A DNA stretch of 64,000 nucleotides from NCBI GenBank assembly GCA_012861695.1, contig JAAOOA010000354.1, forward strand, positions 1 to 64,000, in the 5' to 3' direction. The first letter of the stretch is position 1. The number at the start of each line of letters is the position of its first letter. Made by a program: the position numbers and the translations under genes. Below are positions 7,402 to 51,888 of the stretch, one piece after another. Below the pieces are notes generated by a model that had not been told where the DNA came from, did not search any database, and was given only the letters and a program-made list of their open reading frames with translations. The stretch is from Trematomus loennbergii. Its lineage: Eukaryota > Chordata > Actinopteri > Perciformes > Nototheniidae.

Positions 7402-8584
7402 ATTTTCTTTTTTTCGTTGGGTTTGCCCTTTTTGACCCTTCCTGACCTAACCCCCACACATTCCTCTACTGAAGCCTCCGGACACGAACAACCTCTACGC
7501 TGCTCTACGATCAAAATAACCCCAACACAAACCAGAAGAGGGGATTTTAAAACACGGAGGAAGCTACTGACTAGAAATAAACTACACATGGAGTGTTGAC
7601 GAACCCAGCGCTTCGAGAGCAAGCGTGAACCTTCAGAATCTGAAAGCACCGGCAAGGAGTCGTGTATTTACATAGCTGCAGCTTCTACACGACGCTGTGG
7701 GGAAACTACGGGAATCATTGGGGTTATTACAAGCTCATACAGTCAAGCTATACATATATATAACTATGTACACAAAGTATAAATAAAACCACCCAATGAG
7801 AACCCAGAGATTATAGTTTTATACATATTCAACACCAAAGAGAAAAGAAACTGTAAAAAGGGGGACGCAGTCATCCTGGTTTCATCTAACGCTAATAATT
7901 AGGGGGGTCCAATCAAGTGCTCAGGTTGGAGTAGTTGATAAAGACACACACTCAAATAGAGACGGGACTTATTGTACAAAGCCCCCCCCCCCCACACCCT
8001 CACCCCAACACACTTCATAATTCACGCTTGCTCTTAAAGGATTTACTGCCAATTACAACACCCTTTGCTCAAATCTGTATTCTTTAATTACCGTTACTGT
8101 ACATTACTCTCCGCGCTTTGAGCAGAGAGCCGTTAAAAACAGACAGGAAGTCGACACAGTTATTTTGATCATAGAGGTCACAGGTCATTAAGACAAATTA
8201 AAAGAAACTACAAGCAGCAGGAGGAGGAGGGACCAAAGATTTAAAGGGCCAGTACCTTTTTTTTAAATGGTCGACTCTAAACTGGAGTGTTCGTTAACGG
8301 GAGTGAAGTGCGGGGAGGGGAACGTTGCATAATTGAAGCTTGCAGGGGGAACAATAACTGCGACTTTAGATGTTCGATAATATCCCATAATTCCCTTTGA
8401 ATGTCACCGCCTGGTCGTAGGAACACAGCTGCGAGTCTACTGCGGGTTACACGTGTTTTAAAATGGCCCTTCTTTAGAGGATTAAAAAGCGTACTGTCTC
8501 TTTAAATCCCTGGATGTTTCCTCCGCCCCTGCAGCCCTGACTCTCTAAGCCCCGCCCCCCCCCCCACCACCTGTGCTCAGGTGT
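7402..8584 (-). other. cs: Probable 3'UTR of citrate synthase
   Basis: Runs from the restored stop codon to the first good AATAAA, without introns or known repeats. It contains C- and G-homopolymer tracts at about 7981-7993 and 8553-8566. Extent is inferred. Confidence 0.4.
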
Positions 8585-8754
8585 TCAGCCTGACTTGGCC
8601 CCACCAGAGCCATCAGTCCGTCCGTGCTCATGGACTTGGGGCGCTCCAGAGGGAAGCCCAGCGCCCGGCTCCACACCAGCTGAGCGAGGACACCGAGAGC
8701 CCGGGAGACGCCGAACAGAACCGTGTAGTAGTTCATCTCAGACATCCCATAATA
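8585..8754 (-). CDS. cs: cs exon 11 (C-terminus), 1-base deletion near the stop
   Basis: Reads [20 protein letters not shown] onward to [10 protein letters not shown]. The expected end is AKSG-stop. One G is missing from a run (four C's on the + strand at 8599-8602 where five would keep frame). As written the frame runs past the normal TGA (8585-8587) into a poly-G tract and stops at 8545. I give the boundary with the usual stop. Confidence 0.93.
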
Positions 8755-11700
8755 CTGCAGAGAGGAGGGGGGGGGGGGTTAATACCAGAGATGCAAACAG
8801 ATTAACATGAAGAGAGATACCTGAGGAATTCAACAACTTCATCTCATCACAATATGGACGAGTGCAAAATCCAAAGCACAGTATTTGTTATTGAAAAGGT
8901 GAATTATGAGCTACGTTTAAATGGAGCTGAAGAGATATCCCAGGCTAAGAGATCAACTCAGTGAAAGCACCGCCTGCTGACCAATCAGAGCTCAGTGTGC
9001 AGAGTTTAAAGCGATCAAGTCATATTACAGGATAGAGGAAATACAGAAAAACTGGGAACAGGAAAGACGGCCGGCAAAAATCAACTGACTGTGTGAACGT
9101 GAACATTAATAGAATATCCCCTCCCATCTTCAGAGCAATCTGACTATTATAACATTAGCGTTAAGAAAGCTTACTTAAATATCTGCCACGACATAAGTAA
9201 CCGGATCAGAGTAACATTACGTACAGTCCGCGGCACTGTGAGTGCAGACGTCGATGTGTCCCATTATCATTCATATCATATCACATCATAATGTATCATA
9301 TATCTCCTTATCTGAGTCAGCTTCTTGAGCCGTATCTGGCCGTGCAACACTCACAGTGTCACATACTGGATGCAGAAGTATATTTTAAGCAACACATTAA
9401 GTTGACGAAACACTCGAGTCAAATGTAATTAAAGTCAGATCGTGTCTTGGACGGGGCAGTGATTTCATAAACCTGTTAATGTACGCATTCAAACACTTTC
9501 TCTGTTACCAGCTGTATTCACCTTGCAGGTGCAGCTATGTGGCTTTCATCCTGGATAAAGTGTTTAAGTCATGGATGTTTAAAGTTTAACTTCTTCATAT
9601 TTGACTAATATTAAAGTTCACTTTTCATTCAGGAAGTATGACGCTGCGCTGTCAGTACGCTTGTCCGTGTTTGTGATTGGTCGAATGCTCCAAATACCAC
9701 CCCTTTCATGTGAACGCGCACCTAACTAGATAGGACACGGCTGGCTTGAGCGATCCACTTGATAACCAGCGTCGTAGTACAGCTTAGCCAGAGCGCGTAT
9801 GTTTTGGATTGGGCCAACCGGCTAACTCAAACATATCCAGGTTAGGTTGAACCAGCTTCGTAGTACAGGCCTCTGGTCTTCATTGATATATCTACACTGT
9901 AGCTATGATCACATGACAATGAACGCCTTGAAACCTGAATATGAACGCCTTGAAACCTGAATATGAACGCCTTGAAACCTGAATATGAACGCCTTGAAAC
10001 CTGAATATGAACGCCTTGAAACCTGAATATGAACGCCTTGAAACCTGAATATGAACGCCTTGAAACCTGAATCTGAAACACGTCTCACCTGCAGCAGGAC
10101 CCCGCTGTGGGCGTCCACGTTGGGCCAGGGGTTCTTGGCCTTGCCCTGCTCCAGCAGCACGTTGGGCACGATCTTGTAGAGCTGAGCCACCATCTTGAAC
10201 AGCGGGTCGTTGGGCAGGTGCTTCAGAGCAAACTCCCGCTGGCAGGTGTAGCGGGGGTCCGTCTTCCTCAGGACGGCGTGGCCGTAACCGGGGACAACCT
10301 GCAGAGAGAGAGAGAGAGGGGGGGACACATTTAGGGAGAACGTATGGAGTACTTCCTGCTTCTACTGCTTCCAAATACGCTAATAAAAAGTAATTCTTTG
10401 TTAAAAACGGAGCAACAGATCTAGTAAATTAACAAAGTAACGATGTATGACTGCCAATATTAATTTAAACGTTTTATTGATTTAAATTGACATGCACCCG
10501 CTAGGAAAAATAGTCCGTTGTTACCGTTTGAAATACGTAGCAACGGCAGGAAGGTGGACCTTTTTGATTACAGATTTGAAAACATCGTTGCTTGCTTTAA
10601 AAGTAGCACAATTCATGATGTCAAACCTTGGAAAGTATCTAGATACCCCTGCCCTAATGCCAAAGGAACTGCACACTGAATATGTGTCGCCGTTTGATGT
10701 CTGTGTCTGGACCGCTGCGTAAAAAGGACGGTTTCTGCCCCGTTACTTCTCCGCTGTTTCCTTGTCCCAGTTCCAAACTGTATACAATTAAATCGAGCGG
10801 ACTTCTTTCTGCAGATGTGAGCGTCCTCAACAACGGTCAATAAGTGCTTGACAGCGGCGGTCTGTACTACTGGATTAACAACGTGTTCTGAATTGACCAA
10901 TCAGAATCGAGTATTTAACTAAGCCATGTAATAATGCCACTCAACATATCCTTGGATTGATACCGTGTCCCTTTAAGTTATACGCGTGTGCTCTCCAATT
11001 ACCACCACTCCATTTTTGTAATTAATATCATTTATTTATCCCAGAAACGTTTGCTCAATCACCGAAATACCCCGTGCGCCATCTCGTGCTCAAAACAAAC
11101 ATACAAACGTGCACAAATGGTAGATATTGGAGTTTCTTTACCCGTCCAGACTTGAGTGTGTTCCAGATGTAATCCCTCATCTTCTCGTCAGACACTTCTC
11201 CTCCCAGCTCCTTCTGCAGCGCCGTCAGCCACACCAGCACCTCCTGCACACACACAGTTATTAATGTGATGAAACTGTGAGTACATTCATGCTAAATAAT
11301 TAGGGATGGGAATGATTAATCGAATATTCAAAATGATTCAGGTATTCGAATACGAGTTATGAATATTTAGATTTTAATTTGTTAGTTTTGTTTAGTGGGA
11401 GGGCCTAAATTGAGAGAGGTCAGAAGGTTGTTATGTTTTAAGCTGTAGTCCCTATAGCTGTCAACTCTTCAATAAATTGGACTTGGTTTCTTTATTTATT
11501 GAAAGAAATGTTTTTATTACATTAAAAAAAAAAAAAAAATGTTTTATAGGATATGTAAATTTGGTTTTGTGGGTCGAATATAAAATTTGCTTTCAAATTC
11601 CCATCCCTACTAAATAAGTACACCATTATGACACTTCCATGATACTATCTGAGCCACTTTTTGGTTCAAATAGAGAATGTTCAAACATTCAGTTTGTTTG

Positions 11701-14700
11701 AAAGAAATCCCTTTACTACGAAACCATCACATGTTTAACTATCATGAGTACGGGAGCAAAGCAGTGAGCGTCTGTCAGGAAGCTGGGTCACGACCAACCA
11801 GCTGGGAATAACATTGATGGCAAGATGTATTAAAGGAAACTTCATCTGAGCTCAATGAGGCCGAGATAATGCAAGTAGGAGAGGATTTAACAGCCTGTCA
11901 ACTCCAAATGAAGCTCCACAACGCTCTGTTTATCACATATTTTGAGGAGAGACCCTGAAGACACATCCTTACAGTCATTTAGTTTTTTACACCTGAGCTT
12001 TTCCTATCCCTGCACTATTTCTTAATGTCTTTCATTTGTGTAAAGCGCCTTGTGTTGAAAGGTGCTGTATGAATACACTTGCCTTCCTACTTAATCATAT
12101 TGAGAGACATATTCCACCCTTCAGTGAAATGTAACGTGTTGGTGGTACAGACCTGGTTGGCGAGGCCGTGCAGAGGGCCAGCGAGGCCGTTCATGGCGGC
12201 GCTGAAGGACAGGTAGGGGTCGGACAGAGCGCTGCCCACCAGGTGGCTGGTGTGAGCGCTGACGTTCCCTCCTTCATGGTCACTGAGAGAAGAGAGATGT
12301 TCAGAGGTCAAAACCCTGCTATGTGCTGATGCTGTACCTGTGTGTGTTACATGTAGTGTGTGTACCTGTGTGTGTTACATGTAGGTGTACCTGTGTGTGT
12401 TACATGTAGTGTGTGTACCTGTGTGTGTTACATGTAGTGTGTGTACCTGTGTGTGTTACATGTAGTGTGTGTACCTGTGTGTGTTACATGTAGTGTGTAC
12501 CTGTGTGTGTTACATGTAGTGTGTGTACCTGTGTGTGTACCTGTGTGTGTTAAATGTAGTGTGTAACTGTGTGTGTTACATGTAGTGTGTGTACCTGTGT
12601 GTGTTAAATGTAGTGTGTGTACCTGTGTGTGTTACATGTAGTGCGTGTACCTGTGTGTGTTAAATGTAGTGTGTGTACCTGTGTGTGTTACATGTAGTGT
12701 GTGTACCTGTGTGTGTTACATGTAGTGCGTGTAGTGTGTGTACCTGTGTGTGTTAAATGTAGTGTGTGTACTTGTGTGTGTTAAATGTAGTGTGTGTACC
12801 TGTGTATGGTGAGGTAGTGTGTGTGTACCTGTGTATGGTGAGGTAGTGTGTGTACCTGTGTATGGTGAGGTAGTGTGTGTACCTGTGTATGGTGAGGTAG
12901 TGTGTGTGTACCTGTGTATGGTGAGGTAGTGTGTGTACCTGTGTATGTGAGGTAGTGTGTGTGTACCTGTGTATGGTGAGGTAGTGTGTGTACCTGTGTA
13001 TGGTGAGGTAGTGTGTGTACCTGTGTATGGTGAGGTAGTGTGTGTACCTGTGTATGGTGAGGTAGTGTGTGTACCTGTGTATGGTGAGGTAGTGTGTGTG
13101 TACCTGTGTATGGTGAGGTAGTGTGTGTACCTGTGTATGGTGAGGTAGTGTGTAGTGTGTGTACCTGTGTATGGTGAGGTAGTGTGTGTACCTGTGTATG
13201 GTGAGGTAGTGTGTGTGTGTAGTGTGTGTACCTGTGTATGGTGAGGTAGTGTGTGTACCTGTGTATGGTGAGGTAGTGTGTGTACCTGTGTATGGTGAGG
13301 TAGTGCGTGTACCTGTGTATGGTGAGGTAGTGTGTGTACCTGTGTATGGTGAGGTAGTGTGTGTACCTGTGTATGGTGAGGTAGTGTGTGTACCTGTGTA
13401 TGGTGAGGTAGTGTGTGTACCTGTGTATGGTGAGGTAGTGTGTGTAGTGTGTGTAGTGCGTGTACCTGTGTATGGTGAGGTAGTGTGTGTACCTGTGTAT
13501 GGTGAGGTAGTGTGTGTAGTGTGTGTGTGTGTAGGTGTGTACCTGTGTATGGTGAGGTAGTGTGTGTACCTGTGTATGGTTGTGTAGTGTGTGTACCTGT
13601 GTATGGTGAGGTAGTGTGTGTACCTGTGTATGGTGAGGTAGTGTGTGTACCTGTGTATGGTGAGGTAGTGTGTGTACCTGTGTATGGTGAGGTAGTGTGT
13701 GTACCTGTGTATGGTGAGGTAGAGCCTCATGAGCTCAGTGAACTGGGAGTCGTTGTATCCCAGCATGTTGCTGAAGTTGTGGACCAGTCCAGGTTGGAGT
13801 CGATGGCTCCGATGCTGCTCACGGTAAAGGTTACGGTAAATCTTAGCAGCGATGCAGGGCAGCTTCGCAATCAGATCCATGGAGTCCTCGTACACGAACT
13901 GAGCGGAGCAGCACAAGAGGGTTAAAGGAATTAAAGAGCAATGCATCGGATAGTCGAGAGACAAGGTTTCATTTTCCGGCCGTAGCTCCAAATAAACCGT
14001 CAGTGTTTGCCATCAAGCTCCTGCTCTCCCCGTGTCTCTCCCAGAGTCTCCATTGCTTCAGAAGTCTCCATCACAGTATGACATTTTCAGGAGAGGACGA
14101 CGTGTGACGGTTTGAACTCACCTCCCAGTACTTGGACTTGTGCACCCCCTCGGAGTAGGCGCGGGCGAAGCTGCTCTCGCTGTTCAGAGCCGTGATGGCG
14201 GCGCTGAACTGGGACATGGGGTGCAGGTTGGTGGGGAAGTTATCCAGCATGGTGACCACGTGGGAGGGGAGGGCCGCTCGCTTAGCCCACTCTTTGGAGA
14301 CCCAGCTCACCTGAGAGACAGAACACACACACACACACCGTTAGAGGAACACACACCGTTAGACAGGAACTGAAGTATCCTGCTCTTACTACATCATGTA
14401 CAGTTTCATCCCACAGGCCATAAGACTAAAACACCTGAACTAAGAACATCCAGAACATCCATCTGTTCATGCAACTTACAAATGATGTATCACTTGTATA
14501 GAGACTCTTATGGCACTATTTCTATTCTATTTGATTGTATTTACTTGCACTATTTTATCTGTGTTATTGTGTTGCTCTGTTGGAGGAGCCTGTGACCTCA
14601 GATTTTCATTGTCATATCTACACTGCATCTGCTGAACACATGACAATGAAAGCCTTGAATTGAGATATCCTGCTCCGACTGCATCAAGCACAGTTTCTTT

Positions 14701-17700
14701 TGTTTTATTTGCACCATTTTGGAGGAGACTGGGACTTCAGATTTTCATTTGTAAAAACATTTATACAGTCAAAGTACGTCCTTAAAGTTTACAATATTAT
14801 TTAAGATAAAAAATAAAAAAAACACTATACAAAATGTGTTGGATGGTTTTTCCATTCATAAAAACGACGCTGTGGCGACTGAGCATATGATACTGAGCAT
14901 TTGATACTGAGCATGTGATACTGAGCATGTGATACTGAGCATGTGATACTGAGCATGTGATACTGAGCATGTGATACTGAGCATGTGATACTGAGCATGT
15001 GATACTGAGCATGTGATACTGAGCATGTGATACTGAGCATGTGATACTGGGCATATGATACTGAGCATGTGATACTGAGCATGTGATACTGAGCATGTGA
15101 TACTGAGCATGTGATACTGAGCATATGATACTGAGCATACGATACTGAGCATACGATACTGGGCATACGATACTGAGCATACGATACTGAGCATACGATA
15201 CTGGGCATACGATACTGGGCATACGATACTGGGCATACGATACTGGGCATATGATACTGGGCATATGATACTGGGCATATGATACTGAGCATATGATACT
15301 GAGCATATGATACTGAGCATATGATACTGAGCATATGATACTGGGCATATGATACTGGGCATATGATACTGAGCATATGATACTGGGCATATGATACTGG
15401 GCATATGATACTGGGCATATGATACTGGGCATATGATACTGGGCATATGATACTGAGCATATGATACTGGGCATATGATACTGGGCATATGATACTGAGC
15501 ATATGATACTGGGCATATGATACTGGGCATATGATACTGAGCATATGATACTGGGCATATGATACTGGGCATATGATACTGGGCATATGATACTGAGCAT
15601 ATGATACTGAGCATATGATACTGGGCATATGATACTGAGCATATGATACTGAGCATATGATACTGGGCATATGATACTGAGCATATGATACTGAGCATAT
15701 GATACTGGGCATATGATACTGGGCATATGATACTGAGCATATGATACTGAGCATATGATACTGGGCATATGATACTGAGCATATGATACTGAGCATATGA
15801 TACTGAGCATATGATACTGGGCATATGATACTGAGCATATGATACTGAGCATATGATACTGAGCATATGATACTGGGCATATGATACTGAGCATATGATA
15901 CTGAGCATATGATACTGGGCATATGATACTGAGCATATGATACTGAGCATATGATACTGAGCATATGATACTGGGCATATGATACTGAGCATATGATACT
16001 GAGCATATGATACTGGGCATATGATACTGAGCATATGATACTGGCATACGATACTGAGCATGTGATACTGAGCATGTGATACTGAGCGTATGAGAAAGAC
16101 TTTGAATATAGAAGCTCAAGTGCAGTATTTAACTACAATTTGGATTGACTTGTACTTCACTTAAGTATTTCCATTCAATGCTACTTAATACTTTTACTCG
16201 ACTACATTTACACGACAGCTTTAGTTCATTTTCAGAAGCAGATTTTGCTTCGATATAAAACGTGATAACCTCTTAACGTTTTGCAAAACTAAAGCAGTGG
16301 AATCGACCATTACTCTGGATATTCTTTCCCTACATTACCGTCTTCATTTGCCTCTCTATTGCTAGTATATTTATTATTTTACTCAATGTGAATTTGCTAT
16401 ATTCCTGCTGTTTGTGATGCAAGGTATTTATTTAGTCTGTTCTTGTTTCCTATATACTGTGACCATGACCGAACGGGGTAAGGTGGGTATTTTTATTTCC
16501 TTAAAATAGACAAATATTTTTGTACAACATTCAATGTGTTGAAGATGTGATGTCTGCAAAAAACTAATACAAAGATTTTGGAAAAAACCCACAAAAAACC
16601 AGTGGAATAATTTATTTATTTGACTTTTATGTTATTAGTAAATGTTCCTATGTGTATATATCAGACTTCAAAATGTCCTCAGTATTTATTTAATGCTGGA
16701 GATTCTTCTAAATACTCACATAAACCTGAAAGGAGCAGAATATCTCGTCTCTAAGTGAAGAGTACTTTTCACCGATAAATGCAGATGTGTTGGTTGTACA
16801 TTTACACTGAGCTGTTCATTTTAAAGGTAGAATGGAAATAGTTTGTTAAGAAGAACCTTTTAAAGTCAAACTCAGATGCAATATAGTTCAGAATATGGGT
16901 TATAAGAGGTGAGGCCATACTGAAATATGTAGCCGTCAGATAAAAGTGTTATCAGTGCGATTACCCTCTTCAAGGCGAACAGTGGCAGAGGTATTTAGAA
17001 AAAGGCCGACTGAGGGTTTGTTCCCTGGTTATAAGACAATCAGTAGTTCATAGGAGGCTGTGACCTGGAGATAAAACAGTCATAATAAAATGCGTTCAAA
17101 ACTAGGTCAGGCTCAGAGCAGCTTCACAGAATTAGGTCACAGAGAAAATGGTTTTATTGGCCGGACTTTTACCTACACTTTCAGAAGAATAAAGATAATG
17201 ACGACACGAGTCTCAGACAACGGCCTCTACTGTTAGAGATGCTTTCAATGAGGGGGAATGTCTAGGGCCGCCCTCCACTAATCGTCACACGTTTATGATG
17301 CATTGCGATTATAAATATATATTTTTTATTTCCCAAAATGGTTTCAGTTTCAAAGGCTGATAAAGAGCGGTACTATAACAGCGTGGCACGGACGCAGCGG
17401 TGTGAACAGCAGACGCTCCGGAAAGGATTCTTATTGTGTGTGTGACATTAACAGTTATAATTACCCACAAAGACAAGCTGTTTATCCATATATCCATATA
17501 TCTATCTATCCATCAATCCATATATCCATCTATCTGTATCTATCTATCTATCTATCTGTATCTATCCATCAATCCATATATCCATCTATCTGTATCTATC
17601 CATCATCCATATATCCATCTATCTGTATCTATCTATCTCTCTATCCATATATCTGTATTTATCCATATATCTGTATCTATCCATCAATCTGTATCTATCC

Positions 17701-20700
17701 ATATATCCATATATCTATCTATCTATCTGTATCTATCCATATCTATCCATATATCTATCTATCTCTCTGTATCTATCCATATATCTGTATCTATCCATCT
17801 ATCCATCTATCTATTTATTAGGGATGGGAACGATTAAACATTTTTTTTTTTGGGAGGGTTGCCTAAGTTGATTACATATTATCAAATGGAATAATTCAAT
17901 GTATACGTCAGTGCCATAGCTAAATGTGTTAGGTCTAAAGGTGTGTTTTGCTCCGCTCACCGGCCCTCACATCGGGCAGAGCTGCAGGTGCTGATCTCTC
18001 TCTCTCTCTCTCTCTCACGTCCGGTTATACTTCACTCGCGTTTATGTCCAAACCCATCAGATCTAGTTCTAGCTAATGCTATGGCTGCTGCCCCTCCCTA
18101 CACGCAGACCACGCAGACTCAAACCTCATCTTAAGCCCACATTCCAGCTGAGAGGGTCTTCTCTACAGCTGGCCTGATTGTGAATCGCCTACGCACCCGC
18201 CTCTCCCCTGAGTAGACATGCTCATATTCTTAAAGAAGAATGAGTATTGAGTAGCTGCAGTCTGTGCAGAGGCCCTGTTACAGGTTGATCTCTGTTGTGA
18301 TAGGGTTACGTTACCCTAACCCGTTATGGTGTTCGTGGATGATCCCTCTTTCATTTAAAACAAGTTATGTTTTAAGCATGAAAGCTGTAGGCCTATAGCT
18401 GTCAACTGTTCAAACTGTGATCACCAGTTCAATACATTTGACTATTTCGACTTGGTTTCTATACTTATTTGAACATGTATTTATTTGTTTTTCAAAATAA
18501 AATGTTTTTCTCTTCCAGATATGTACATTTCGGTTAACCGTTTTATTGGGGGTCGAATATTCGAATATACATTTGCTTTCAAATTCCCATCCCTACTATC
18601 TATCCATATATCTATCTATCTCTCTATCTCTCTATCTATCCATCTATCCATCACATATGATGAAGTTCCTCTTCATCATAATCATCAACCCTCATTCTGC
18701 AGGAAAATCTAATTTAGGAAACGAGACGAAGTGGAGATACGATCTGACGAAGTGGAGATACGATCTGAAGAGCCCCGGCAGATGGATGCAGATAATGAAC
18801 AGCTGTGAACTCGTTACACTTCATCTCCCCCTGCTCTCACCTGCTCCTCGGTGGGCACCTGTCCTGTGATCAGCAGCCAGAAGAGACCCTCGGGCAGCGG
18901 CTCCTCTCCTCCGGGAGCTTTGGGCAGCAGACCCTGACATTCTGGGATGCTGTAGCCACGGAAACGGATACCCTGCGTTTCAATGGAGACAGAAATGTAT
19001 TGTTATCGTGCAGATTATATTCTTTCATTTCTTATATGCTAGTTGTTTGATCTTATGTTTGCTTGCATGTATAGTAGGTGTGGATAGCTGAAACTATACA
19101 TGACAATAAAACATCTGAATGCTTTCATATCATCCTGGCTGGATTATTGTAACTCCATTCTCACTCGTTTTAGTCACCTCTGACCCGTCTACAAATGACC
19201 CACCAGGTCCAGCAGGAGGACTCGCATCACACCCATCTTAAGAGCTTTACATTGGCTTCCACATTTACATTTAGTCACTTCACAGATGTGGATGAATGAT
19301 GTGAAATATAATCAAGTGTTAAATCAGACTTTAGTTCCACCTGGAGTAAATCCACAAGCTACCCTGCAGTATACAAACTCATTCAAACTAGCTGCACCTT
19401 TACCAGCTTTGAGAACACTTTCATGATCAATCATTATAAAACATATCATATATATTATTCTGAAATGGACCAATCTGCACAATGACTACTTTTACTGTCG
19501 CTACTTTCACTATATTTTGATGAGAATACTTTCCTACTTTTAGTTGAGGAACCTTTTGAATGCAGGACTTTTACTGAAACAGAGTATTCCTACACTCTGG
19601 TACTTCTACTTTTACTCAAGTACAAGATCTGAGTACTTCTACTTTTACTCAAGTACAAGACCTGAGTACTTCTACTTTTACTCAAGTACAAGACCTGAGT
19701 ACTTTTACTTTTACTCAAGTACAAGATCTGAGTACTTCTACTTTTACTCAAGTACAAGATCTGAGTACTTCTACTTTACTCAAGTACACAATCTGAGTAC
19801 TTCTACTTTTACTCAGGTACAAGATCTGAGTACTTCTACTTTTACTCAAGTACGCGATCTGAGTACTTCTACTTTTACTCAAGTACAAGATCTGAGTACT
19901 TCTACTTCTACTCAAGTACGCGATCTGAGTACTTCTACTTTTACTCAAGTATGCGATCTGAGTACTTCTACTTCTACTCAAGTACGCGATCTGAGTACTT
20001 CTACTTCTACTCAAGTACGCGATCTGAGTACTTCTACTTTTACTCAAGTACAAGATCTGAGTACTTCTACTTTTACTCAAGTACGCGATCTGAGTACTTC
20101 TACTTCTACTCAAGTACGCGATCTGAGTACTTCTACTTCTACTCAAGTACAAGACCTGAGTACTTCTACTTTTACTCAAGTACAAGATCTGAGTACTTCT
20201 ACTTTTACTCAAGTACAAGACCTGAGTACTTCTACTTTTACTCAAGTACAAGACCTGAGTACTTCTACTTTTACTCAAGTACAAGATCTGAGTACTTCTA
20301 CTTTTACTCAAGTACAAGGTCTGAGTACTTCTACTTTTACTCAAGTACAAGATACTTATACCACCGCCGTTTATAGGCTATGAAAGAAACTATTTGAAAA
20401 CGAAGGCTAAAGCTAACGTTAGCAGATAGTGACAATGTATGCTAGTTAGCCAGCTCAACGATTCATTAAATAATATTGCGACAGAAACACTTTTCAGTGC
20501 ACATCACGCTCTGCTGGTTAGAACACCCCGTTCTAACCAGCGGTCCAGTCTGTGCCAGTGACTTTGGACCGCACAGTTAATATTAACGAACGCACCGTAG
20601 GTAATGTAGCTAATGAAGCTAGACCCTCATCCCGGAGCAGCAGAGCCTTATTATACATCCATGAGCAGAGCTGACAGGCAGGAAGACTTGTGCTCGCGCT

Positions 20701-23700
20701 TCATTATAATATATAAAAAATAACACCATGCGTGTCATGATGGCACATAACAGCTCGCGGCCGCAGATTACTCCGGGTCCCTGTTTTAAGGTTCTTGTTA
20801 TCACGTATAGAGCCCTGCATGGACAAGAGTACTTGAGTGACCTTCTCCATCCCTTCATCACCAGTAGGTCACTTAGCTCTTCTCCTGGCTGTCCCTCGCT
20901 CTCCAAAACTAAAAAGGTGACCGTGCTTTTTGAAGTAGTGGCTAGTGGTTGTGGATGATTTGATTTCTGCTCACAGGATGAGTTAGGACATGCTGCTCTG
21001 CGTCTGAAGGCTCTCAGAGTAACCAGGGCAAGTGCCTCAGAGGGAGTTTCACTTATTAAAGCAGCTTGGAGGCAAACTGACCTCATCAGGATCCAGAACA
21101 GAGGTCTCGTACACCAGACCCTTCATCCCCCGCATGCCTCCGTACACCTGGGGACACAGCAGAGGATAAAGAGACATTAGGACATGACATTAGGACATGG
21201 TGGAGACATTAGGACATGGTGGAGACATTAGGACACGGTGGAGACATTAGGACACGGTGGAGACATTAGGACACGGAGGAGACATTAGGACACGGTGGAG
21301 ACATTAGGACACGGAGACATTAGGACACGGAGACATTAGGACATGGACAATATATATTTTAATTTAAATATACGTGATATATATATATATATATATATAT
21401 AACACGTATATTTAAATAAAAAATATTTAAAGAAAAGTTTTTCTGAAAAAAATATTTTTTTTTTAAATATTTTTTTTAGAAAATCTCACAATTCTGACTG
21501 TTTTTCTCAGAAAGATATTAAAAAAGATTTTCTGAAAATTATATTTATAACATTTGTTTTGTATTTTTTTCCTAAAATCTCAAATGAATTACTTTCTTTC
21601 AAAAAACAAAAAAAAATAAACTTGTGAAATCTCAAATGTTTCCCATGTGGCCGTAATTCTCTTCTGTCTATCTCCAATCTAGTCTGATCTAATACACAGA
21701 AGTTAGTGCTCTTTGAAAGGCTGCATTGGTATACATGTTATCACGCTTCAGTGTCCTTAAAAATGTGGTTGTATGGATATTATATTCTTTCTGGAACAAC
21801 ACAGGAACCGACACAAGACGTTATCGTGACCGGCCTGTAATAGATGTCAAAATGTGAGCTTCTGCTTCTGCTTTTACGAGGCGTTTTGAAATGCAACGGA
21901 TATATTGGCGTCTGCTAACCGTGTCGACGGTTCAGGAGCGTTTAGTGTCTCCTCTGATATAGAAACAATACATCAAGTCTGAGGTTAATAATCTGAGTTT
22001 CCCCCGCACGCTGTTCGGCTGCCGCTAACGTTAGCTCAGCTTGTGTCTCTGGTTACTTCAGATCCAGGTACCATGACTAAACACCTTTCATCCGGTTAAA
22101 AATCAACCAAGACGTGGCTTAAAACTGGATAAGAAGTACGTTTATGACCACTTCTGTCAGCTAACGTACGCTCACAGGAGACAGAGGATTAACGTTCATT
22201 ACAATTACACATTTCTCTGAAACTACTCGACTGATATTGCATATTTAAAATGATGTGTAACCAGACAAAGATATTGAACCGTGGCGTTCGTCACTCACCA
22301 TGTCGACGTTGATCTGACCTATGTTGGTTTTGCCGTACTGCTGTTTGAAGCTCTTGATGCGGGTCTGTTCTTTGGGGATGAGGTCGGCCAGGATATCCTT
22401 CAGATTCTGCAAAAAAAAACACAACTTTATTTAACATCTAATCTTTCAAATACAAACACACTGCTCCTCCGCTGTGAACCGGGGATAATCAAACAGACTT
22501 ATGTCAACAATGAAGGGAGAGAGATTGATCTGTGGCTCGGCAAAGGTCAGCGTGTTCTATTAATACAACAGAGGAGGAACCAGTGGCTTTTACACATATA
22601 TTCTAAGTTGTGTTTGGAAATATTATAGGAGTATTTTAACAACATTTAAATGTACAAAAAGCTAAGTACAAGATTCTGCACATTGGAATTTAAGTCAAGA
22701 AGTGTGCAGACAAGAGCGCCGCTTCGAACTGAAAGACAGACTTATGTGCGGGGTTCACAATATTAGTATATATATATACATTTTATATATATTTGTTATA
22801 CAATATCCCCACGATAAGCTCACATGACGTGCCTTAGTGTCATGTATAGCGTCTATGAAGGGGGTTAGTAGTGTCCTTAGAATAATAATGACATGAATAT
22901 AGGAGGCAGTGCACTTACTGTTGTTGAAGCGCTGGCATTTCTGGCAGCCTGAAGGAACGCGGCATTCTGGGAAAACACAAGAAATACGATTTTGAGTGAG
23001 AAGCAGAAACCCCAAAACTCGTCATGAACTGTGCAAAAAGTCGATATTTCATATGAGCAAAAAATGTAAATCCAACTCGTTATTTAATGCTTATTTATCT
23101 ATTAAATATCGTTTGACACTTTGCACGATCCTGTCTGGTACTAAGCAAAGTATGATCTTACTTTAAGTAAAAATGTACCCATGAAGCAACACTTCTAGGT
23201 TACTGAAGCTACTTATGAACCAAGACAACCTTAAAATAATTGAACGAAAGCTGCAGATTCATTTTTGTTGTTAGTCAGGTCTATGCAGGAATCCTGAAGT
23301 CACATGTAAGACCTTTTTTAAGACCCTTTCCATACATTTTAAGACCTCATCGCCACTTTGAGTTTGAACCGGTTACCATGGCGACACACTTCACCTCACA
23401 TTTACTATATACAGTATTGATCGTCCTTCCTCCTTATCTTCCAACCATTTGGACGCTAACTTGCATTTCAAAATGTAACACCTTGGAAAATGCCGTTTAA
23501 TACTTTTTAATAGCCTTTATTCAACTCGTAACACTTTGTAAGACCCCGCGGACCCCCTGTAGTCCTGCTATTACCTGAGTAAAGACAGACTTTCAAACTA
23601 ATATGTTGAAGTAGTAGACATCTTCACACCTAAACATTTTCTAGTTATTCAAAATTCAAATGACAGGTTCTTTCTGACCAGTAAACAGAGATGTGAGACG

Positions 23701-28799: not shown

Positions 28800-29700
28800 A
28801 CTGATGCCCACAATTACCAGAAGTGTAAAGTAAGTACATTTACTCAAGTACTGTACTTAAGTACAATGTTGAGGTACTTGTACTTTACCTGAGTATTTCC
28901 ATGTTATGCTACTTTGTACTTCTACTCCACTACAGTTCAGAGGTAAATTGTGTACTTCTACTCCACTACATGTATTTAATACCTTTAGTTACTTTAGTTA
29001 CAGATGTGGATGAATGATGTGAAATATAATCAAGTGTTAAATCAGACTTTAGTTCCACCTGGAGTAAATTCACAAGCTACCCTGCAGTATACAAAGTCAT
29101 TCAAACTAGCTGCACCTTTACCAGCTTTGAGAACACTTTCATGATCAATCATTATTAAACATATCAGATATATTATTCTGAAATGGACCAATATGCACAA
29201 CGACTACTTTTACTGTCGCTACTTTCACTATATTTTGATGATAATACTTTTTTACTTTTACTTGAGGAACATTTTGAATGCAGGACTTTTACTGTAACAG
29301 AGTATTCCTACACTCTGGTACTTCTACTTTTACTCAAGTACAAGACCTGAGTACTTCTACTTTTACTCAAGTACACAATCTGAGTACTTCTACTTTTACT
29401 CAAGTACAAGATCTGAGTACTTCTACTTTACTCAAGTACAAGATCTGAGTACTTCTACTTTTACTCAAGTACAAGATCTGAGTACTTCTACTTTTACTCA
29501 AGAACAAGATCTGAGTACTTCTACTTTTACTCAAGTACAAGATCTGAGTACTTCTACTTTTATCAAGTACAAGATCTGAGTACTTCTACTTTTATTCAAG
29601 TACTAGATCTGAGTACTTCTACTTTTACTCAAGTACAAGATCTGAGTACTTCTACTTTTACTTGAGTAACATTTTGAATGCAGGACTTTTACTTGTGTGA
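28800..29700 (+). mobile_element. Common teleost non-coding repeat, full 5' part, with VNTR
   Basis: Starts near 'gtgtaaagtaagtacattta' (short inverted ACTCAAGTACTGTACTTAAG palindrome inside) and follows the same body as 19262 and 51170 (inverted). At about 29325-29690 it holds 10-11 units of the 33-bp ctgagtacttctactttta array. One unit lacks a C ('ttttatcaag'). Confidence 0.85.
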
Positions 29701-40800: not shown

Positions 40801-43800
40801 CAACACAACAACACCAAACATCACATGAACAAGGAAAAGTGCAACACCCTCACCTGAGTCCTACTGGAGAAAGAGTCTTGAGAGTGACGTTTGTGACGCT
40901 CTGCCCGTTGGTGAGAATCAGCTCCACTAATGTGACGTGCTGTAAAGGATGTGTTCATCTCCACAGAGGGAAGAGGAAGAGTGGTGTTCCTGTGGAGGAG
41001 CAGCTGTCCAGCTGTGCTCTGTGTCAGGACGTCCTGAAGGATCCAGTCTCTACCAGCTGTGGACACTGGTTCTGCAGACAGTGCATCACCTCATACTGGG
41101 AGCAGAGACCTCCATCAGGAGACCCCTCCTGTCCCCAGTGTGGAGAAAGATCCAGAACCAGAGCTGGACTGCAGACAGCCAGTCAGACCAGCTCTGTACG
41201 AGGTAAGAGGCCGAACACATGCAGCGTCTTATTCCTCTTCCTGGTTCATTTGTGTTTGAACAGGTATACTGTTGTAGAGCATAGACAGTAAGCTGTTTAT
41301 AAAACATTTAAACTCAGTCTGTTTTTGTTTTATTGTTATAATTAGATTCTCAGAGCATTTCCCTCATTCTCTCATGTTTCCTTCTCTTCCAGCAGATAGT
41401 GGTCTGCAGGAGGTTTTAGATGAACATAGGCTCAGTCTGAGGAGGAGATGTGAACGTGTGACTGAAGGAACTGATCAAAGTGAAACCCTCCTCAACAGGA
41501 TCTTCACTGAGCTCTACATCACACAAGGCCAGAGTGAAGAGGTTAATACCCAACATGAGGTGAGGCAGCTGGAGACAGCTTCCAAGAAGAAGCCCCTCCA
41601 TGACACTCCAATCAAGTGCCAGGACATCTTTAAAGCCTTACCTGACCAACAGACTCTCATCAGAGCGGTCCTGACCAACGGAGTCGCTGGAGTTGGAAAA
41701 ACCTTCTCAGTGCAGAAGTTCACTCTGGACTGGGCCGAGGGTTTGGGAAACCAAGATGTCAGTCTGGTGATCCCGCTCTCCTTCAGGGAGCTGAACCTGA
41801 TCAAAGGTGAGCAGTACAGTCTTCTCAGGCTGCTCCATGTTTTCCATCCAACCTTACAGAAGGTCACAGCAGAGCAGCTGGCTGTCTGCAAAGTGCTGCT
41901 CATCTTTGACGGCCTGGATGAAAGCAGACTTTCTCTGGACTTCAGAAACAATGAGGTTGTGTCTGATGTCTCTCAGCAGTCCTCAGTCAACGTGCTGCTG
42001 ACAAACCTCATCAGGGGGAAGCTGCTTCCCTCGGCTCTCGTCTGGATAACTTCCAGACCTGCAGCGGCCAATCAGATCCCTCCTGAGTGTGTGGACAGGG
42101 TAACAGAAGTACGAGGCTTCACTGACGCCCAGAAGGAGGAGTACTTCAGGAGGAGATGGAGTGATGAAGACCTGTCCAGCAGAATCATCTCTCACATCAA
42201 GAGCTCCAGGAGCCTCCACATCATGTGTCTGATCCCAGTCTTCTGCTGGATCACTGCTGCAGTTCTGGACCACATGTTGACTACAGACCAGAGAGGAGAG
42301 CTGCCCCAGACCCTCACTGACATGTACTCACACTTCCTGCTGGTCCAGACCAAGAGGAAGAAGCAGAAGTATGAAGAGGGACATGAGACGAGTCCACAGC
42401 AGCTGACGGAGGCTGACAGGGAGGTTCTTCTGAAGCTGGGGAGGCTGGCGTTTGAACATCTGGAGAAAGGAGACATCATGTTCTACCAAGAAGACCTGCA
42501 GCGCTGTGGTCTTGGTGTCACCGAGGCCTTGGTGCACTCAGGAGTTTGTACACAGATCTTCAAAAGAGAGAGAGTGATCTTCAGAAAACAGTCTACTGCT
42601 TTGTTCATCTGAGCATTCAGGAGTTTCTGGCTGCAGTCTACATGTTGCACTGTTACACCAACAGAGACACAGAGGTACTGAAGGACTTCCTGCAGGAGAC
42701 TATCAACAGCAGATCAGGATTACCCATCCCTGGATGACTTCCTGAAGGGAGCCATGGAGAAATCCCTCCAAAGTAAAATGGCCACCTGGACCTGTTTGTC
42801 CGCTTTCTCCACGGCCTCTCTCTGGAGTCCAACCAGAGACTGTTAGGAGGCCTGCTGGGTCGCACAGACAACAGACCAGAAACCATCCAGAGAGCCATCA
42901 GCAACCTGAAGGAGATGAGCAGTAGATCCTCTCCTGACAGGAGATCAACATCTTCCACTGTCTGACAGAGATGAAGGACCACTCAGTACATCAGGAGATC
43001 ACAGAGTTCCTGAAGTCAGAGAACAGATCAGAGAAGGAACTCTCTGTGATCCACTGCTCTGCTCTGGCCTACATGCTGCAGATGTCAGAGGAGGTTCTGG
43101 ATGAGTTGGACCTGGATCAGTACAACACATCAGATGGGACGACGAGACTGATTCCAGCTGTGAGGAACTGCAGGAAGTTCAAGTAAGTCCAGATGTGATT
43201 AACTTTATAAACTAATGTGGATCAGGAGTTTAATTATTCAAATAAACACTATAACATTTCTGCTGTTTAAATACTGAGAGCAAAATAAACCAACACTGTT
43301 CTTCTATTTATTTATAATAATAGTTAAACTGAAGCGTTCCTCTCTTCATATTGAGTGATGGAGGCGACATGTCAAACACATGAAGGACTTGAGAGGTTTC
43401 TCAGCATGTGATCACACCACACAGCAGGACTTACAGTTATCACAGAAACATGTTATTATTACTTTCTTTGCTTTTTTCTTTGCTTTTTAAGAAAATATTC
43501 ACAAAGCATACATAACCAAATAAACACATCTAAGTACAAGATGAACTACATAACAGATGACAAATCAGAAAGACATAATAAATAATAGTATTAATAATAT
43601 TACAAATGAAAGAATGGATACTTATGAATATGAATACATTATGAATACTCAGGTACACATTAATTATATTCACTGTATTGTTCTATACTGACCCATTCCT
43701 CCCACCTTTCCTCAAAGATATGCATTTGGTTTCTAATCTAGTTGTTTTCTCCGTTACATAGATTTCATTTACTAAGTTATTCCATTGTGAGTTTACTAAG

Positions 43801-51174: not shown

Positions 51175-51888
51175 TAACCAGTCTGTTACAGTATTACCAT
51201 CAAAATATACTTCAGTAGAAGTAGAAGTACTCAGATCTTGTACTTGAGTAAAAGTAGAAGTACTCAGATCTGGTACTTGAGTAAAAGTAGAAGTACTCAG
51301 ATCTTGTACTTGAGTAAAGTAGAAGTACTCAGATCTTGTACTTGAGTAAAAGTAGAAGTACTCAGGTCTTGTACTTGAGTAAAAGTAGAAGTACCAGAGT
51401 GTAGGAATACTCTGTTTCAGTAAAAGTCCTGCATTCAAAATGTTCCTCAAGTAAAAGTAGAAAAGTATTCTCATCAAAATATAGTGAAAGTAGCGACAGT
51501 AAAAGTAGTCATTGTGCAGATTGGTCCATTTCAGAATAATATATATGATATGTTTTATAATGATTGATCATGAAAGTGTTCTCAAAGCTGGTAAAGGTGC
51601 AGCTAGTTTGAATGACTTTGTATACTGCAGGGTAGCTTGTGGATTTACTCCAGGTGGAACTAAAGTCTGATTTAACACTTGATTATATTTCACATCATTC
51701 ATCCACATCTGTAAAGTAACTAAAGGTATTACATACATGTAGTGGAGTAGAAGTACACCATGTACCTCTGAACTGTAGAGGAGTAGAAGTACACAGTAGC
51801 ATAAAAGGGAAATACTCAGGTAAAGTACAAGTACCTCAACATTGTACTGAAGTACAGTCCTTGAGTAAATGTACTTAGTTCCTCTCCA
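51175..51888 (-). mobile_element. Common teleost non-coding repeat, inverted copy with short VNTR
   Basis: The reverse complement follows 28830-29400, with five units of the 33-bp array at 51205-51395. It ends near 'agtccttgagtaaatgtact', matching the 5' end of the copy at 28830. Confidence 0.85.

Follow-up and report, generated by a model that had tools for sequence, protein, structure and literature searches.

A minisatellite repeating the exon 7 splice donor of a citrate synthase gene in Trematomus loennbergii

Introduction

The minisatellite of the human IFI6 gene (6-16/G1P3) reportedly consists of about 26 copies of a 12-bp unit resembling the splice donor consensus, begins near the end of exon 2, and permits the in-frame addition of four or eight residues. 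That it "provides multiple splice donor sites" is stated in the title of a study by Turri, Cuin and Porter (Turri et al., 1995, cited in PMC4526556 and PMC2572611), and two of its downstream repeat units are described as acting as donors, giving rise to three mRNAs (PMC4526556). Here we describe an array of this type at the border between exon 7 and intron 7 of the citrate synthase gene (cs) of the notothenioid fish Trematomus loennbergii. The stretch analysed, hereafter the window, comprises 64,000 nucleotides (GenBank assembly GCA_012861695.1, contig JAAOOA010000354.1, positions 1 to 64,000), and the cs gene lies on its minus strand.

Anatomically, the fish array joins the IFI6 type as a new and large member, and its layout is not new in kind. 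Both are minisatellites; the downstream units of IFI6 are described as usable donors, and the units in the fish carry a donor site. The fish array differs in its 27-bp unit, in a second, diverged array that brings the total to 47 donors, and in irregular units that disturb the frame; moreover, its host is the gene of a central-metabolism enzyme, and its extra donors are candidates only. The original prediction knew of no housekeeping gene with a variable number tandem repeat of donor sites. As portrayed in the sources cited above, IFI6 is a partial precedent for such an arrangement, although it is not a housekeeping gene.

Two further groups of described repeats bear on the locus. Tandem repeats at exon-intron boundaries have been catalogued in human segmentally duplicated genes (PMC2812944); as outlined there, they likewise lie across such borders and are able to change splicing, but they are reported to form novel introns in recent paralogues, whereas in the fish the donor of an old intron has been multiplied. 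Intron gain through tandem duplication of AGGT-containing segments is the subject of the Rogers model (PMC4974935), and the same theme is attributed to Zhuo et al. 2007 (cited in PMC3488318). The fish unit also contains AGGT and occurs in tandem copies, but neither a new intron nor a usable acceptor is apparent in its units. In the open-licence literature, no paper on a repeat in cs intron 7 of fish was found, and no fish donor array was seen among the titles matching repeats or minisatellites at donors, new introns, or exon-intron junctions.

Binding of hnRNP L to CA repeats is a mode of intronic regulation near donors. Repeated CA dinucleotides are preferred by hnRNP L and LL, and the inclusion of CD45 exon 4 is repressed by hnRNP L (PMC3823766). 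Whereas in such systems CA-rich RNA lies beside the donor, the fish donors are themselves embedded in a CA-rich repeat.

Results and Discussion

The exon 7 donor of cs is repeated in tandem

On the minus strand, from position 13722 downward, the window contains head-to-tail copies of CTACCTCACCATACACAGGTACACACA. The repeats start 18 bp within coding exon 7 of cs and run into intron 7 as far as 12333. Tandem Repeats Finder detected a period of 27 at 12731-13722 and a period of 54 at 12333-13722. Together with a donor-listing script, it delimited array A (12791..13722, minus strand), with 32 CAG|GTAC donors whose AG|GT sites lie from 13705 to 12800 and all share the core CAG|GTACAC. The unit, CTACCTCACCATACACAG|GTACACACA, comprises 18 bp of exon and 9 bp of intron. 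Of the 31 intervals between donors, 23 are exactly 27 bp long, and the eight that depart from this spacing measure 28, 29 (three times), 34, 40, 45 and 50 bp. The window holds 42 copies of the core ACACAGGTACACAC, all on the minus strand and located from 12358 to 13710, whereas 100 shuffles gave none.

The identity of the gene was established by tblastn with a human citrate synthase sequence, followed by exon mapping. Exons 2-11 span 8576..22966 on the minus strand, whereas exon 1 was not located. Nine of these ten exons gave clear matches, from 22406 to 8602, and the remaining one, at 22919-22966, is a weak match (E 8.9) that was accepted via its splice borders. In total, nine donors read GT and ten acceptors read AG. 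The protein obtained by joining exons 2-11 with a script contains the Pfam domain Citrate_synt (PF00285, 322 bits), and its best solved match is the mitochondrial citrate synthase 5uqs_A, which carries the LTIHSDHEGGN motif too. Exon 7 (13705..13898, minus strand) ends in CTC TAC CTC ACC ATA CAC AG, encoding LYLTIH plus two nucleotides, and exon 8 (12153..12282, minus strand) starts with T GAC CAT GAA GG, which completes the serine and continues with DHEGG. The borders are GT...AG with matching phases, and splicing from the donor at 13705 to exon 8 yields ...LYLTIH-S-DHEGGN.

Judged by its coding content, the end of exon 7 is the source of the exonic part of the repeat, because this part encodes the conserved LTIH of the LTIHSDHEGGN motif, which 99 of 120 listed relatives carry (7999 scored), against none of the 120 for RYTHY. 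The exonic part is therefore old coding sequence, and the copies derive from it.

Array A is continued by array B (12333..12790, minus strand), identified with the same programs, whose 28-bp units, CTACATGTAACACACACAG|GTACACACA (or CATTTAA), contain 15 further CAG|GTAC sites. This raises the candidate donors to 47 AG|GT sites, from 13705 to 12338, reading CAG|GTACAC in 46 cases and CAG|GTACAG in one. Array B is more diverged than array A (7 of 15 versus 27 of 32 unit windows identical), and the donor-like site has been lost in at least two of its units (CAA|GTACAC, ACA|GTTACA); it is probably the older of the two and of intronic origin. Beyond it, the 3' end of intron 7 (12283..12332, minus strand) reads as unrepeated sequence with a pyrimidine-rich acceptor (CTCTCTTCTCTCAG).

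These results bear out much of the original prediction, whose interval corresponds to array A and which had correctly recognised the exon 7/intron 7 junction and its amplification in place, with identical immediate flanks around each copy of the real donor. The unit length of 27 bp also held, but the proposed division into 14 exonic and 8 intronic bases covers only 22 bp. Similarly, the count of about 32 copies is right for array A, but the extent was set too short, as it left out array B. The label of variable number tandem repeat implies a copy number that may differ between individuals; the analysis covered one sequence.

Strength and surroundings of the donors

Numbering the natural donor (CAG|GTACAC, last exonic base 13705..13705, minus strand) as k = 0, we compared the nine cs donors using a weight matrix and the energy of the duplex with U1. 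The natural exon 7 donor obtained the lowest matrix score (4.2, the others ranging from 5.3 to 11.5), and its duplex energy of -7.1 kcal/mol was the third weakest, after the exon 2 and exon 4 donors (-6.7 and -6.6). It is thus weak by both measures, though these do not agree on its being the weakest. With the weight matrix, the AG|GT copies score the same as the natural donor, except the last one (4.28), and 11 CAT|GTAACA sites within array B score 3.41. Since the AG|GT copies score alike, the choice among them must depend on their position and surroundings.

The surroundings are not alike. ACACA occurs once in the 60 nt upstream of donor 0 and six times downstream, and 4-8 times upstream and 6-11 times downstream of array A donors 1, 2, 5, 15 and 31 (five sampled of 31). 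CA-rich sequence lies chiefly upstream of donor 46 and chiefly downstream of donor 0. Splicing at the very last donor was discarded as a candidate, since the intron would be only 55 nt long, below the usual vertebrate minimum.

Origin of the array and choice of donor

The explanation that we consider probable, with appreciable room for doubt, is a runaway minisatellite that expanded in place across the exon 7/intron 7 border and was tolerated since the first donor is mostly chosen. The repeated 27 bp are flanked by CTAC both in the exon (CT-CTAC-CTC) and in the intron (ACACA-CTAC-ATG/TTT), and these flanks can be read at the exonic end of array A and at its border with array B. Slippage or template switching between the CTAC tetramers may have duplicated the 27-bp unit, which would then have expanded to 32 copies beside an AC-rich intronic repeat, array B, that was probably already present. 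As the duplicated segment spans the exon-intron border between the two tetramers, every copy carries the natural donor.

Most transcripts would use the first donor (13705), the later copies acting as weak decoys; such a preference could arise because authentic exon sequence precedes the first copy alone. Subsequent copies in array A lie in RNA that is CA-rich on both sides, a type of sequence bound by hnRNP L, and may be repressed, the first copy being less affected. In the protein nearest to the spliced cs product, that of the blackfin icefish Chaenocephalus aceratus (P0006), the annotated junction is precisely that of k = 0.

Several points weigh against this explanation. Donor choice was read from the DNA sequence, and the ancestral state of the array was reconstructed from a single example. 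The rank of weakest donor comes from the weight matrix, because the U1 energy places the natural donor third, and the same matrix gives 4.52, above the 4.2 of the natural donor, to a GT within exon 7 as assembled (ACC|GTGAGC), a site that coincides with a 5-bp indel described below. The icefish protein model may be homology-based, which would weaken the value of its k = 0 junction. Finally, intron-proximal donors are described as favoured by SRSF1 and distal ones by hnRNP A1 (PMC5585400), and the SRSF1 preference would push splicing toward the later copies.

Within a single essential gene, dozens of nearly identical 5' splice sites stand in natural competition, the outcome of which must be settled by position, exon definition and bound proteins. 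Should the first copy alone be used, the array would be informative on why splicing settles on the first among many equivalent donors; should later copies be used, isoforms or dose would depend on the number of repeats. The locus also illustrates how a minisatellite can spread across the exon boundary of a conserved gene.

Reading frames of the alternative donors

Each of the 47 donor choices was translated through to exon 11. In array A, 17 of the 32 donors, the natural one included, are in frame and open (k = 0-6, 17, 18, 21-25, 28-30), whereas none of the 15 in array B is; the frame is disturbed in array A because of the eight irregular intervals. Donors 1-6 add in-frame LTIHRYTHY units, apart from one TTIHRYTHY, and for these six donors the proposal that use of donor k would add k such units stands. 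It does not extend to any k, as premature stops result from 15 of the 31 extra donors of array A and from 15 of 15 in array B. The stops precede the exon 10/11 junction by 353-860 nt. The usual rule for nonsense-mediated mRNA decay (NMD) sets the limit at 50-55 nt before the last junction, and NMD is predicted for the out-of-frame donors because their stops are at least 353 nt from the exon 10/11 junction. Six exact units in a row are unremarkable when 8 of 31 intervals are irregular (P = 0.14), a result by which selection for in-frame early units was set aside.

These frames bear on an alternative in which the array works as a regulated ladder of donors, producing mRNAs that differ in 27-nt steps, and with them a citrate synthase of variable length and/or a fraction lost to NMD that sets the enzyme dose by array length. 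The core common to all array A donors and the exact frame of donors 1-6 speak for it, as does the donor use of two downstream units in human IFI6, with its three mRNAs, in the account given in PMC4526556. Nevertheless, we regard such a ladder as unlikely. A search for proteins with six translated units returned none at E <= 0.001 among 3624 candidates. The query consisted mostly of repeat and failed to retrieve even ordinary citrate synthases, so that a protein holding a single unit or two could have escaped it, and models of this kind may be avoided by gene predictors; the negative is thus weak evidence against an in-frame isoform. RYTHY occurs in none of the 120 listed relatives, and an insertion would directly precede the motif kept in 99 of them. 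The run of six exact units, being no unusual event, adds nothing in favour. The more specific proposal, that cs is spliced at a donor ladder in icefish, with array length tuning variants with 9-residue insertions or an NMD-set dose in a manner heritable by repeat number, is improbable; if true, repeat number would tune either variants altered next to the exon of the active site or the dosage of a central enzyme of the mitochondrion.

If the array is instead a tolerated minisatellite with the first donor mostly chosen, occasional use of donors 1-6 would insert 9-54 residues immediately ahead of the SDHEGG motif, and NMD substrates would result from such leakage at 30 of the 40 donors beyond these.

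Protein comparison and reliability of the assembly

The spliced cs protein is closest to those of notothenioid fish. It is identical to the blackfin icefish protein in 414 of 447 columns; the aligned residues differ only in a shifted patch of exon 7 and at the last aligned position, and the icefish model lacks two stretches present in the window protein. The protein of Dissostichus eleginoides (P0011) shows one further aligned difference (S/N), together with insertions of its own and a skipped stretch.

The shifted patch reflects losses of 5 bp and 1 bp in exon 7 relative to the proteins of relatives (about 13780-13820, minus strand), by which 14 residues are replaced by 12. A further 1-bp loss lies near the end of exon 11 (about 8596-8602, minus strand), after which the frame overruns the stop expected from relatives. 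There are no stops within the mapped cs coding exons. For the three coding indels, sequencing or assembly error appears likelier than decay, because the mapped splice borders are intact and the other exons are free of stops. As a consequence of these indels, the exact unit count and some of the irregular units are doubtful.

Array length is often wrong in draft assemblies, and the array might be real but shorter or longer than it appears, with false indels, in this draft long-read assembly. The three coding indels suggest as much, as does the agreement with the icefish protein at the remaining aligned residues, except the last one and the two stretches missing from that model. The copies, however, are not all identical, several irregular units correspond to changes of a whole AC or a whole motif and not to random single-base indels, and the other mapped exons are open without a stop. 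An artefact in the size or detail of the array is therefore improbable in our estimation.

The same indels could be taken as the mark of a decaying gene copy, in which the array is tolerated as the locus no longer makes enzyme; both the shifted exon 7 patch and the shifted C-terminus overrunning the expected stop would fit. The intact GT donors and AG acceptors, the stop-free mapped coding exons and the match to the icefish protein outside the indels tell against a pseudogene, as does the failure of tblastn to find a second cs exon 7 within the 64-kb window, and we judge this explanation very unlikely.

In the units, CCTCACCATACACAG and TAACACACACAG stand before the GT, and acceptor use within the array was rejected because no pyrimidine tract was seen by eye. 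That the AG|GT of the unit serves as both acceptor and donor, with parts of the array removed as small or recursive nascent introns, is extremely improbable, as each CAG is preceded by CA-rich sequence, unlike the exon 8 acceptor.

Two features of the toothfish D. eleginoides model deserve mention. At its exon 10/11 border (residues ~408-455), VLLQ occurs three times (VLLQGAAAGCCCRVLLQVRDVFNIHYLRVLLQ), as if the end of exon 10 and the start of intron 10 had been duplicated in tandem; a search for this insertion in other species, using the region as query, returned the query alone. At the exon 7/8 border, the model skips the end of exon 7, as if the gene predictor had avoided the natural donor, and the toothfish cs gene may carry a donor array too.

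Other repeats and genes in the window

A second donor-side minisatellite is present in cs intron 10 (9919-10077, minus strand), with 7.2 copies of a 22-bp unit and 99% matches. It starts 11 bases past the exon 10 donor and does not include the donor itself, and its unit holds an AG|GT (ATTCAGGTTTCAAGGCGTTCAT). The intron separating cs exons 5 and 6 holds, at 14878-16093, a 14-bp unit repeated about 87 times. A 33-bp minisatellite unit, TCTGAGTACTTCTACTTTTACTCAAGTACAAGA, is found at 19596-20353, 29314-29662 and 51208-51398, the third occurrence being on the opposite strand. When six further open frames from the window were compared with Pfam, one proved to have domains and five had none. The open frame at 41278-42609 (plus strand) encodes FISNA, NACHT and NOD2 winged-helix domains and represents a fragment of a fish NLR-type gene.
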